Positions 13,092 through 28,363 of a stretch of 28,363 nucleotides of DNA are shown one piece after another. Position 1 is the first letter of the stretch. Every line of letters starts with the position of its first letter. The notes under the pieces were generated by a model. The model saw nothing but the letters and a program-made list of their open reading frames with translations, was not told where the DNA came from and did not search any database. The translations under genes and the position numbers were made by a program. This DNA comes from a virus: IMG/VR virus record IMGVR_UViG_3300023223_001795, positions 1 to 28,363 of that record, one strand, 5' to 3'.

Positions 13092-13904
13092 TTAAAGATT
13101 ATATTTTTGAATTAATAGAAGTTCCCACAATTTCCCAATCCAATGTGGGACCTTGTCATTTCCTGCATGTTTTTTAGAAAAATATCTATTAAAAGCAGCC
13201 CTTGGCTTTGTTTGAATCACCAGTTTTGTGAATTTTTTTGTTAGGAAAGTGGGTTGATAATCCTGGGCCTCCATGTTTCTCACAACGTTTTTCACAAGGG
13301 ATGAATTCAGACCATTTGACGGGGGATCCTCCCTTTTTAATCTCATTAAATCTAATTTCACATCACCTAGCTCAAATAGGTCTCCTAATACCCTGAGAGG
13401 CCAGTTAGTTTTGAGTCTACGGGCTCTACGGAAAAAAACGATGTGATGAGGTTGTATGAATTCCCAAGGCTTAAAATCACGCTCTACGTATTCTTTTTTA
13501 CAAATCCTGACACTGTGTTTCCTGACTGCACTCAGAGCATGGGTGGCATACCTTTCACCCATACAAATAAAAATTGCAGGGCATCCAAAAGTCATTTGGT
13601 CTCTATTGCATGATTGATTATTGATTATATCCCGGTAGAAAATCCCATTTTTCATCCTAGCCCAGTAAAAATCCTGGAACCCATTAACCTTTCGAGTGGT
13701 GAGTTTGTTGAGTTTTTTTAGGGCATAGGTTACAGCCCCTGTGTGATGGACTGTGTCACCAAAATTATCCTTAAAATGGCGTTCGTCTGAGATGTGGTGA
13801 TAGCGTATCCCATATAATGGCCGCCACCACCCTTTGAAAAGTTCAGAAATCACATGATCAAGTGCATAATGACCAACCTGAGCAGTCATGTCATCCTCAT
13901 TCAT
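13092..13904 (-). CDS. Unknown protein, 270 residues
   Basis: The ATG is at 13904 on the minus strand. The sequence is basic and rich in aromatic and His residues, without membrane segments. Notable stretches are HHISDERHFKDNFGDTVHHT (about 36-55), a region with Cys (QSCNRDQMTFGCPAIFICMG, about 97-116) and a C-terminal FNRYFSKKHAGNDKVP, which reads like a conserved terminal motif. It is the last gene of the leftward block and converges with the structural genes. I do not recognise the family; dense His/Arg/Trp content would suit an enzyme or nucleic-acid-binding protein, but this is not shown. Confidence 0.55.
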   Translation of the reverse strand: MNEDDMTAQVGHYALDHVISELFKGWWRPLYGIRYHHISDERHFKDNFGDTVHHTGAVTYALKKLNKLTTRKVNGFQDFYWARMKNGIFYRDIINNQSCNRDQMTFGCPAIFICMGERYATHALSAVRKHSVRICKKEYVERDFKPWEFIQPHHIVFFRRARRLKTNWPLRVLGDLFELGDVKLDLMRLKREDPPSNGLNSSLVKNVVRNMEAQDYQPTFLTKKFTKLVIQTKPRAAFNRYFSKKHAGNDKVPHWIGKLWELLLIQKYNL

Positions 13905-14294: not shown

Positions 14295-14549
14295 TTAAAG
14301 CTCTAATTCGAGTCTGTTTTTTTTATGGCCACAATAGCATTTCCAGTTATTTTTTTTGGAAAACTCATACCCGGCATCAGTACAGGCCAAAGTGCACTCT
14401 CTTTTGCCCCATTTCCTACTGGGCTCAACTTTAGAGTTGCATCCACATGAAAGGACCACAAAAATCAGTACTAAGGCAATGGCAAAAGCCCAAATTCCAT
14501 TAGAAATCTTAGAGACTGCTTGTCTAGTTTGACTCTGATTTGATTTCAT
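14295..14549 (-). CDS. Small Cys-rich membrane-anchored or lipoprotein-like protein
   Basis: An 84-residue protein whose ATG overlaps the end of the upstream gene by 26 bp. Residues 17-35 form one hydrophobic segment (ISNGIWAFAIALVLIFVVL) ending in SCGC, which may be a non-canonical lipobox. The outer part has four Cys (CTLAC and CYC) compatible with two disulfides. With a 16-residue basic/polar N-terminus it would face the periplasm. GGGGA lies about 9 nt upstream. No family recognised; could be an exclusion or lysis accessory protein. Confidence 0.5.
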   Translation of the reverse strand: MKSNQSQTRQAVSKISNGIWAFAIALVLIFVVLSCGCNSKVEPSRKWGKRECTLACTDAGYEFSKKNNWKCYCGHKKNRLELEL

Positions 14550-14793
14550 TGAGTTTTTCCCCTTTGAGTTTAGATTTTTTTAAAAAATCCATATATTCAG
14601 TATACTGACCGGATGTGATTCTCTGAAAATAGGTAATCACAACATCCCTTGAATCTATTCCATAATGGTCTGCCACTTTTTGACATGTGGCGCCAAGAGG
14701 GAAAACTTGGCAGTCAGTATCAACCGCCCACCCTCCCTCAATAGGTATGGCTTTGTGTCTAAATGCCTTGAAACAAAAATAAAAATAATTCAA
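14524..14793 (-). CDS. Hypothetical protein, 89 residues
   Basis: Read from TTG at 14793, which overlaps the upstream stop codon (TTGA), with a weak GGGGA about 9 nt upstream. Aromatic N-terminus (NYFYFCFKAF), then GGWAVDTDCQVFPLGATCQ, a helix-turn-helix-like stretch (KVADHYGIDSRDVVITYF) and a charged C-terminal helix. A DNA-binding role is possible from the middle region but weakly supported. Confidence 0.45.
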   Translation of the reverse strand: MNYFYFCFKAFRHKAIPIEGGWAVDTDCQVFPLGATCQKVADHYGIDSRDVVITYFQRITSGQYTEYMDFLKKSKLKGEKLNEIKSESN

Positions 14794-15044
14794 TGAGTTT
14801 CATCCCCGTTTGTTTCAGACTCCTCTGGTATAATCCCATCCTCATTCACATCCGAAAAATGCTCTCTTAAAATTTTGACCAAATACTGATTTTTTACAAA
14901 TCCCTGATGTTTACAAAATTTTACAATTCTATCTGAAAGCTCTCTCTCAATTGCTAAAACATGACTTGAGGTTTCATTATTAAAAGACCTTTTTTTTGGG
15001 CCTCTTCTAGGTGTTTCATCAATATTCTCAGTTGTATTTTCCAT
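14790..15044 (-). CDS. Small protein, possible DNA-binding
   Basis: An 84-residue protein starting at 15044 with a GGGAGGGA site upstream. A basic PRRGPKKRSFN stretch (about 12-22) is followed by two predicted helices (AIERELSDRIVKFCKHQG and QYLVKILREHF), an arrangement like ribbon-helix-helix or small HTH proteins, and an acidic tail. It lies 11 bp after the restored stop of the VRR-NUC gene. Evidence for function is weak. Confidence 0.45.
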   Translation of the reverse strand: MENTTENIDETPRRGPKKRSFNNETSSHVLAIERELSDRIVKFCKHQGFVKNQYLVKILREHFSDVNEDGIIPEESETNGDETH

Positions 15045-15055
15045 TCCATCCCTCC

Positions 15056-15471
15056 CTAAATCATTTCTCCCAATATTTCAATAACATCCTCTAGTGAGGA
15101 CGCCACGCCGGCTATACCACCACAGGCGCGGACATTGTCCAAAAACTGTTTTTGCTCAATCGCATGTTTCCAAGCCTTTTCAATCCCTGGTGTTGGCCTA
15201 AATCCCCTGGCTGTATACCGAAACCATTGTTTTTTGGCCTCTGGGGTTTTGACCTCAATTGCAAAAAAAAACCTTGTGGTCCAATCACACCCAAGATGTC
15301 AGAGACTCCCCTTATAGAATATCTTTTGAGGGTCCTCCACTTTTTCCTGGCAGTATCATAGGTGCCAGTGGTTTTCTGATGCCAACAAAAAATTTTTTTC
15401 ATCCAAAGCCAATCCAAAATACAGTTTTGGATGTCTCTCTCAGTGGATTTTCCAGTCAAATTAGTCATCAT
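15056..15471 (-). pseudogene. VRR-NUC nuclease with frame break at a homopolymer
   Basis: From ATG 15471 the first 69 residues give STERDIQNCILDWL, a helix, then RGVSDILGVIGPQGFF, the front half of a VRR-NUC PD-(D/E)xK nuclease (catalytic Asp58). The annotated frame then leaves the family: it continues with LQLRSKPQRP and ends at 15112. In the -1 frame after the T9 run the family resumes exactly: FAIEVKTPEAKKQ (Glu73 and Lys75), QFLDNVRACGGIAGVASSLED, ending at 15056. The joined product would be 138 residues, normal for the phage-type standalone nuclease, which acts on branched or structured DNA. Causes: a one-base deletion in sequence or assembly, a true mutation, or programmed slippage on U UUU UUU. 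Confidence 0.8.
15263..15271 (-). other. Homopolymer slip site in the VRR-NUC gene
   Basis: Nine A on the plus strand (nine U in the mRNA), directly where the nuclease frame breaks. Ten U, or a -1 slip, would restore the family sequence between FF and AIEVK. The run contains the slippery heptamer U UUU UUU. Confidence 0.8.
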
Positions 15472-15698
15472 GCTTTGAATTTATTTTGGTTTTCACCATC
15501 TTTTTCAAGGGCCTCGACTCTCTTATTGAGAGAATCTATCTCAGCTTTTAACCTATTGTTTCTATTGAGTAAAACCCCAAAAGTGCTTTGAATGTGGCGA
15601 AACATTTCTCTCCAATAGGCATTATGGCTAGACCAATGGCCCTGTTTTAAAAGAGTGGTGAATTTTTTGATGTGTTTATGTTCTGGTGTTTGGCTCAT
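15468..15698 (-). CDS. Small coiled-coil protein
   Basis: The preferred start is the ATG at 15698, which has AAGGA 7 nt upstream; an in-frame ATG at 15752 lacks a ribosome-binding site. The 76-residue product begins MSQTPEHKHIKKF, has Trp/Tyr-rich helical residues (GHWSSHNAYWREMFRHIQS), and ends in a coiled coil (LNRNNRLKAEIDSLNKRVEALEK, split across 45-67). The stop overlaps the start of the nuclease gene (ATGA), so they are coupled; it may be a nuclease partner. Confidence 0.55.
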   Translation of the reverse strand: MSQTPEHKHIKKFTTLLKQGHWSSHNAYWREMFRHIQSTFGVLLNRNNRLKAEIDSLNKRVEALEKDGENQNKFKA

Positions 15699-15779
15699 TC
15701 CAGTTTCCTTTGGGTTTCCATCCCTTAATAGTCCTTTTGTTGTATTGAACATTTTTCAGAAAATCAAGTGGGGTGGGTC

Positions 15780-15813
15780 AAAAAAAATAGCCCCTAACTC
15801 ATAATTAGGGGCT
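15780..15813 (-). terminator. Rho-independent terminator between minus-strand operons
   Basis: A 9-bp perfect stem (15789-15797 with 15805-15813, core CCCCTAA/TTAGGGG) with a 7-nt loop. On the minus strand it is followed by a run of seven T (plus-strand A run at 15781-15787). It separates the replication genes (15890-17088) from the downstream leftward genes, which then need readthrough or their own promoter. A short TTTATT on the other side could give weak function for the plus strand. Confidence 0.8.
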
Positions 15814-17241: not shown

Positions 17242-17334
17242 GATTGAAAAACAGAAAATAAATTTTTTATCTACGTATATCCTAAGCAAGGAAACCATTG
17301 CCATGGGGCTCCCAGTGCGGTGTATACTATTTCT

Positions 17335-17523
17335 ATGGAATCACCTCCACCCAGGAAAAAAAAATTCACGCGAACTAAAAAAGTGGTTAAAATAGCGGAT
17401 TCACTGCAGAAACTTTCCAAAACTATCCACGGAATTAAGGAAATGGATTTAGATTTTGAAACCAAATTCTCATTAGCTGAATTGGCCATAGATGAGCAAA
17501 TAAAAACACTGCTAAAAAAATAA
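17335..17523 (+). CDS. Small basic protein, first rightward gene
   Basis: A 62-residue product (MESPPPRKKKF start) with a basic N-terminus and two predicted helices (VVKIADSLQKLSKTIHGIKEM and KFSLAELAIDEQIKTLLKK); no membrane segment. There is no Shine-Dalgarno. TATACT at 17323-17328 would place a transcription start near the ATG, so a leaderless message is possible. A GTG at 17320 is in frame but also lacks a site. Nucleic-acid binding is a guess from charge. Confidence 0.45.
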   Translation: MESPPPRKKKFTRTKKVVKIADSLQKLSKTIHGIKEMDLDFETKFSLAELAIDEQIKTLLKK

Positions 17524-26615: not shown

Positions 26616-26652
26616 AATTGACCCATAGCCTCAACTGTGAAAGAATTTGGAC

Positions 26653-26964
26653 ATGGAAACGCTCTCTGAAATAGCCAGGGAGGCCATCCTTTGGACTCTC
26701 TCCCAACATAATTGGCATCGGTCACGGACTGCCCACACTTTGGGAATTTCAGTAAGGTGCCTGAGAAATAAAATCCATGAATATAAAGATGATGGTTGGC
26801 TCATCCCTGAAAGCCCTGACAAAAGAATATTAATAATTCCTAAGCCATTGAAATTAAAGCGTCAATTCTCATCTGAGCAGTTAATACAAAAAGACATTAT
26901 GGACAGACGCTATCCAAATACTGGGGGCTCATGGCCTCCTAGGGACAAATCTATTGTTATTTGA
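26653..26964 (+). CDS. Fis-type HTH regulator
   Basis: A 103-residue protein; TTG 26647 is in frame but ATG 26653 is a normal start. Residues 11-46 form the HTH_8 (Fis) domain: AILWTLSQHNWHRSRTAHTL, then GISVRCLRNKIHEY, matching the Asn-Trp-x-Arg and GIS-x-R-x-L-R-x-K signature. The C-terminus is basic and Pro-rich. With no AAA or receiver domain it is a stand-alone binder, a good candidate for activating late transcription or bending DNA. Confidence 0.8.
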   Translation: METLSEIAREAILWTLSQHNWHRSRTAHTLGISVRCLRNKIHEYKDDGWLIPESPDKRILIIPKPLKLKRQFSSEQLIQKDIMDRRYPNTGGSWPPRDKSIVI

Positions 26965-27602: not shown

Positions 27603-27839
27603 ATGGGTTATTTAGTTATAATGCGCAGAGTGGGCGAACGTCTCATTTTGACTGCAAAAACTGATTTTAAAGCGGGCCAAGAGATCGAAATAATGGTCTC
27701 TGATGCCTCTAACGGTAAAGCAGACCTGGCCATTAAGGCACCACAAGAGATAGGTATTAGCAGGAAAGGCACTCACATCCAGGAGGGTGACGTTGTCAAT
27801 AAACATCACGCTAGAATCGGACATACAAAAGCTAGGTGA
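27603..27839 (+). CDS. csrA: CsrA-family RNA-binding translational regulator
   Basis: A 78-residue protein aligned to CsrA along its first 60 residues: LVIMRRVGERLIL corresponds to LILTRRVGETLMI, and DLAIKAPQEIGISRKG to RIGVNAPKEVSVHREE. Arg54 matches the key RNA-contact Arg44 of E. coli CsrA, while the following Glu is Lys. There is an extra loop of about seven residues after RRVGERLIL and an 18-residue tail. CsrA dimers bind GGA motifs near ribosome-binding sites. No Shine-Dalgarno is visible, and the last 47 bp overlap the tail gene, whose AGGAGG lies inside csrA. Likely role: control of phage or host message translation. Confidence 0.83.
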   Translation: MGYLVIMRRVGERLILTAKTDFKAGQEIEIMVSDASNGKADLAIKAPQEIGISRKGTHIQEGDVVNKHHARIGHTKAR

Positions 27840-28363
27840 TTTCCTCACCAAACTCAAAACCAAAGCCACTGTAATAGCCACCAGACAAGCCCTCAATAAG
27901 ACTGTGAAGAGTTTCAGGACATTCTCTGCCAAAGAGCTCAAAAAACAACGTGACATCAAAGTAGGTGAGATCAAAAAGAAACACATTAGAACCACAAAGG
28001 CTAAGGGCAGCAAACTAGAGGATATGGAGGCAACGGTTAAGTTTGGGAAGAGGGATTTCTCTTTACTCAAGTTTGTGAGGGGATCGAAAGACCCACGGAA
28101 ACAAAAGGGTATAGCACCTAAGAGCCGTGCCAAGATCAAGGTACGTATCAAGCAGGGGAAATCAATTAAGATGAAGCGTGCCTTTATAGTTAAAGGGTTT
28201 GGGGGCAAAAACATCATAGTTAGACGCAAAGAGAATGAGCTGAGAGGCCCAAACAATCAAAAAGGTAGAGTGGTTCTAATGTGTTTCTTTTTGATCTCAC
28301 CTACTTTGATGTCACGTTGTTTTTTGAGCTCTTTGGCAGAGAATGTCCTGAAACTCTTCACAG
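27793..28363 (+). CDS. gpZ-like minor tail / tail-completion protein, 3'-incomplete
   Basis: Best start is TTG 27793, which has AGGAGG (27781-27786) 6 nt upstream; GTG 27787 directly abuts the site. The product (MSINITLESDIQKLGDFLTK) continues with ALNKTVKSFRTFSAKEL and a basic helix, fitting the minor tail protein Z family in which an N-terminal helix pair and a conserved ALN-x-T motif precede a basic domain. Reliable sequence ends near 28269: from 28270 the DNA is the inverse of 27902-27995, and the last 31 codons are an antisense artefact. In myophages gpZ-like genes lie between the capsid genes and the sheath. Confidence 0.68.
   Translation, partial: MSINITLESDIQKLGDFLTKLKTKATVIATRQALNKTVKSFRTFSAKELKKQRDIKVGEIKKKHIRTTKAKGSKLEDMEATVKFGKRDFSLLKFVRGSKDPRKQKGIAPKSRAKIKVRIKQGKSIKMKRAFIVKGFGGKNIIVRRKENELRGPNNQKGRVVLMCFFLISPTLMSRCFLSSLAENVLKLFT
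27902..27995 (+). repeat. Inverted repeat, left copy (94 bp)
   Basis: Perfect 94-bp inverted match to 28270-28363. It lies within the gpZ-like gene and is separated from its partner by 274 bp. Confidence 0.97.
28270..28363 (-). repeat. Inverted repeat, right copy at the sequence end (94 bp)
   Basis: The last 94 bases are the exact reverse complement of 27902-27995. A fold-back that ends exactly at the sequence edge and replaces the 3' end of an ordinary gene is most easily explained as an assembly or amplification chimera. Confidence 0.97.

Follow-up and report, generated by a model that had tools for sequence, protein, structure and literature searches.

A VRR-NUC nuclease gene split at a run of nine T in a metagenomic phage contig most likely reflects a miscount or unselected length variant rather than conserved programmed recoding

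Here, we analyze a window of 28,363 bases, i.e., the whole stretch of DNA under study, which equals the complete virus record. On the minus strand at 15056–15471, a standalone phage VRR-NUC nuclease is encoded in two parts that differ in reading frame and have a run of nine T between them (T9; 15263–15271, A9 on the plus strand). Read across this run, the gene encodes 138 residues. The zero-frame open reading frame (ORF) at 15112–15471 (minus strand) encodes 119 residues, of which the first ~69, including E11 and D58, are native and the following ~50 are out of frame. The rest of the domain, AIEVK...GEMI*, is in the −1 frame at 15056–15262 (minus strand) and carries E73, K75, and Q107 of the E-PD-ExK...Q active site. 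This frame has 68 stop-free codons past the shift in which these three residues and a GG motif are kept, and it is open for a further ~30 nt upstream of the T run. In the zero frame, the run is read as GGT TTT TTT TTG and contains the slippery heptamers T_TTT_TTT and T_TTT_TTG, both in phase. No homopolymer in the window is longer than this T9 run, and only one other is of equal length, a second A9 at 17356–17364, which lies in a small predicted ORF (17320–17523, plus strand) that is open across the run.

The window represents a tailed-phage contig with Mu-like baseplate genes and a replication initiation protein. Upstream of the nuclease gene on the minus strand, a gene for a 94-residue protein with a weak PHROG match to a sigma factor family (15468–15752; E = 0.003) overlaps the VRR-NUC start codon by 4 nt (ATGA). 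Downstream, a gene for an 84-residue, weakly Arc-like protein (14790–15044, minus strand; phrog_582, E = 0.0026) starts 11 nt past the stop of the −1 frame. With the −1 frame, the 4-nt overlap and the 11-nt gap give the spacing expected of an intact operon gene. A hairpin at 15789–15813 (minus strand) upstream of the 94-residue gene, with an 11-pair stem followed by a T tract, is terminator-like by consensus match only, and this putative terminator is a possible boundary of the minus-strand operon. The same minus-strand group includes a small ORF with a weak match to Rz-like spanins (14295–14549; E = 0.0017). Right after the tail-region genes and on the opposite strand, there is a 270-residue ORF without a PHROG match (13092–13904, minus strand), and phage-encoded CsrA-like and Fis-family HTH proteins are found at 27603–27839 and 26647–26964, respectively. 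The contig end contains a perfect 94-nt inverted repeat (27902–27995 versus 28270–28363) with its arms 274 nt apart; the right arm comprises the last 94 bases of the contig within a minor-tail-protein-Z-like gene, and the repeat is probably an assembly or amplification chimera.

The joined 138-residue reading matches PHROG 93 “endonuclease” over residues 9 to 137 (E = 3.3e-11). By contrast, the 119-residue zero-frame ORF alone has no family match in Pfam or PHROG, and the tail alone reaches only E = 7.6e-4 (phrog_824) and 1.9e-3 (phrog_93). The joined protein matches Pfam PF08774 (VRR_NUC) weakly (E = 0.011), and its 16.2 bits do not reach the curated cut-off of 23.8. A profile of six rows, i.e., the target sequence and five relatives, matches the VRR-NUC structure 4QBL (E = 8.2e-5). 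Because the Pfam score is below the cut-off, yet the matches to PHROG 93 and to the VRR-NUC structure are significant, we classify the predicted protein as a diverged VRR-NUC relative and not as a typical member by curated Pfam score. Residues E11, D58, E73, K75, and Q107 align with invariant columns, and the signature E...(P/S)D...ExK plus Q is complete solely when the two frames are joined; the roles of these residues in the VRR-NUC active site have been described for psNUC and stNUC (PMC4103454). Since E73, K75, and Q107 are all located past the T run, the annotated 119-residue product should be inactive. Compared to its relatives, the segment that links the ExK strand to the Q helix is longer by ~20 residues in the joined protein (residues ~79–102, within 15262–15056 on the minus strand); the dimer-blocking insertion of FAN1 sits elsewhere, between β1 and β2 (PMC4103454). 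Based on sequence, the gene is predicted to encode an ordinary standalone phage VRR-NUC, i.e., a Holliday-junction-resolvase-like nuclease, and represents a previously undescribed relative of a known family.

To place the frame switch, we moved it base by base and scored the resulting readings with a profile built from 14 relatives, excluding the target sequence. The unjoined zero frame scored 12.6 bits, while joined readings peaked at 74.9 to 76.1 bits with the switch placed at the beginning of the T run. Switch points upstream gave 59 to 72 bits, those downstream of the ExK strand ~52 bits, and those up to ~20 nt upstream of the run were just 3 to 8 bits below the peak. At the T run, a one-base shift outscored a two-base shortening by 3 to 4 bits. 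This run is the best-scoring placement, by about 3 bits or more, and homology does not force the exact position. These results (~75 to 76 versus 12.6 bits), together with the PHROG 93 match of the joined reading, confirm the claim of the earlier note that the halves of a VRR-NUC domain are in different frames, and its description of the downstream frame as intact to the stop at 15056, 11 nt before the gene starting at 15044, is equally borne out. Its statement that the switch falls “exactly” on the nine T was too strict; the run is the best placement, but upstream points are also allowed by homology.

The two nearest homologues found, L016 and L017 from IMG/VR, align without gaps across the junction (RGVSDIIGCIPKTGRFLAIEVK versus RGVSDILGVIGPQGFFFAIEVK); both have GRFLAIEVK within a single open frame and lack a T run. 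Among ten aligned phage and plasmid relatives, the run was absent in all six for which the junction DNA was inspected, and no more than two F occur at this position in the remaining four. Thus, none of the homologues examined has the T run, and the comparison of run length proposed in the earlier note gave no support for programming. These relatives are distant (the phage ones ~30% identical by tblastn), so that recent programming within the lineage is compatible with their lack of the run. No close relative of the gene or the phage was found in IMG/VR, GTDB contigs, phages, or plasmids, peptide-pattern searches included, and the frame break is, therefore, a singleton. The sole GTDB match was a chance match to a transporter-like ORF, the neighbor search with the replication gene returned a different phage without a VRR-NUC match, and the baseplate genes as queries found no kin in IMG/VR. 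A DNA pattern from GVSD to IEVK that was one base short had zero matches; because the in-frame pattern had only two, this zero is not informative. A Pfam scan of 398 genomes returned mostly FAN1-sized proteins.

We suggest that the consensus carries a one-base length change in the T run of an ordinary VRR-NUC gene. Either the run length would have been miscounted in the consensus, or the change would be a genuine length variant, recent in the phage population or carried by a minority of it. The T9 break is most likely one of these two and not a conserved programmed recoding signal; this assessment covers a miscount and the unselected part of the real-variant case, and it overlaps with the weight that we give to polymerase slippage below. 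In our judgement, a consensus miscount has a roughly even chance, a real recent variant that is possibly partly rescued by polymerase slippage is distinctly less probable, and programmed recoding is improbable; decay and phase variation make up the remaining share. The length change, we infer, is an error or an unselected variant. First, in a large survey, BLAST-validated frameshift genes that are singletons were expected to stem from sequencing errors and not from indel mutations (PMC3711429). Second, homopolymer errors were reported for 0.3 to 1% of genes in one Illumina metagenome assembly and for 2 to 3% in one made with 454 (PMC3277595). From these rates, we estimate ~0.1 to 0.8 affected genes for a 28-kb window of ~30 gene-lengths, and a single case in such a metagenome contig is, therefore, unremarkable. 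However, all other A/T runs of 8 to 9 nt within predicted genes are in open frames, two of them in homology-supported genes (baseplate hub and NlpC/P60-like), which argues against a contig with general homopolymer damage. Moreover, in many bacteria, it is precisely at a run length of nine that selection against slippage of the polymerase starts to show (PMC1088944). Of the two origins raised in the earlier note, a sequencing error or a programmed frameshift, the former still stands, with a real T9 as its alternative, while programming finds no support here: the homologues examined lack the run, a clear stimulator was not seen, and a stop close to the site is missing.

The strongest alternative, which we hold tentatively, is a real T9 that causes RNA polymerase to slip. 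Those transcripts that gain an additional U would then give the full nuclease and the rest the dead 119-residue product, representing incidental rescue with no evolved regulation. A run of at least nine A or T is present at the frame junction, at the peak of the placement score, and nine A or T support efficient slippage in vivo, as used in dnaX of Thermus thermophilus (PMC5009743, PMC1088944). Broken genes are also rescued in this way, e.g., tssM1 of Citrobacter with A11 at ~20% (PMC4256274), and the undecayed frame past the run is consistent with such rescue. However, the run is common to no relative examined. If T9 is real, some full-length enzyme would be expected without a dedicated signal, either via polymerase slippage or via a −1 slip on T_TTT_TTG, and unprogrammed polymerase slippage is no less plausible than ribosomal frameshifting.

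Programmed −1 ribosomal frameshifting at U_UUU_UUU or U_UUU_UUG, giving two products at a set ratio as for E/E+E' of phage P2, is unlikely. In its favor, each heptamer is in phase, the TTTTTTG shift site of P2 and related phages has no hairpin downstream (PMC3091744), and U_UU.U_UU.U is among the heptamers that shift at >0.1% in Escherichia coli without stimulators (PMC4066793). However, the most efficient bacterial motifs do not include U_UU.U_UU.G (PMC4066793), and none of the relatives examined conserves the run. The RNA downstream of the site folds weakly (z = −1.77, with 11 of 200 shuffled sequences folding at least as well), and no obvious Shine-Dalgarno-like stimulator was seen by eye upstream of the T run. 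Moreover, translation in the zero frame would continue for 50 codons beyond the T run instead of ending early in a short product; codon-resampled controls are open for a mean of 17 codons, and 6% of them reach 51. Slightly less probable still is a real and selected T9 at which slippage by the polymerase or the ribosome would set the ratio between full VRR-NUC and an inactive form. If so, the inactive form, still containing the first half of the fold, might restrain a junction-cutting enzyme that works as a dimer.

Phase variation by replication slippage, which would switch the nuclease between on and off states within the phage population, is very unlikely. Homopolymers as long as this one are prone to mutation, and bacteria are known to phase-vary through poly-A/T tracts (PMC3711429), but the one consensus contains a single allele, the run is absent from the relatives examined, and genes for replication or recombination nucleases are not usually phase-variable. 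Equally doubtful is a decaying pseudogene in the phage lineage, for which the one frameshift speaks, since the 68 stop-free codons with E73, K75, Q107, and the GG motif, and the intact spacing of stop and start to the neighboring genes, argue against all but very recent loss. The assertion that the gene is not decayed is, accordingly, upheld with regard to an old pseudogene, while an error or a recent indel is still compatible with the intact tail.

If the length change is an error, the case illustrates that the halves of a gene split at a homopolymer in a metagenomic phage should be read jointly prior to annotation; taken separately, neither half of this nuclease is well recognized, and the enzyme would be overlooked. 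If T9 is real and selected, it would represent a case of recoding in a phage resolvase-like nuclease.

The joined protein has the same E...PD-ExK...Q signature and single-domain size as psNUC, stNUC, and saNUC (PMC4103454; PDB 4QBL, 4QBO), except that the frame is split before the ExK strand. As in dnaX of T. thermophilus (nine) and tssM1 of Citrobacter rodentium (eleven), an A/T homopolymer lies in the coding region. In these two systems, slippage gives two products, and the transcripts and both products have been demonstrated, whereas the VRR-NUC case is known from one metagenomic consensus. The heptamer TTTTTTG of phage P2 E/E+E' is present in the same phase inside T9. However, the site in P2 is shared with its relatives and lies in a tail operon (PMC3091744), whereas T9 is unconserved and lies in a nuclease gene.
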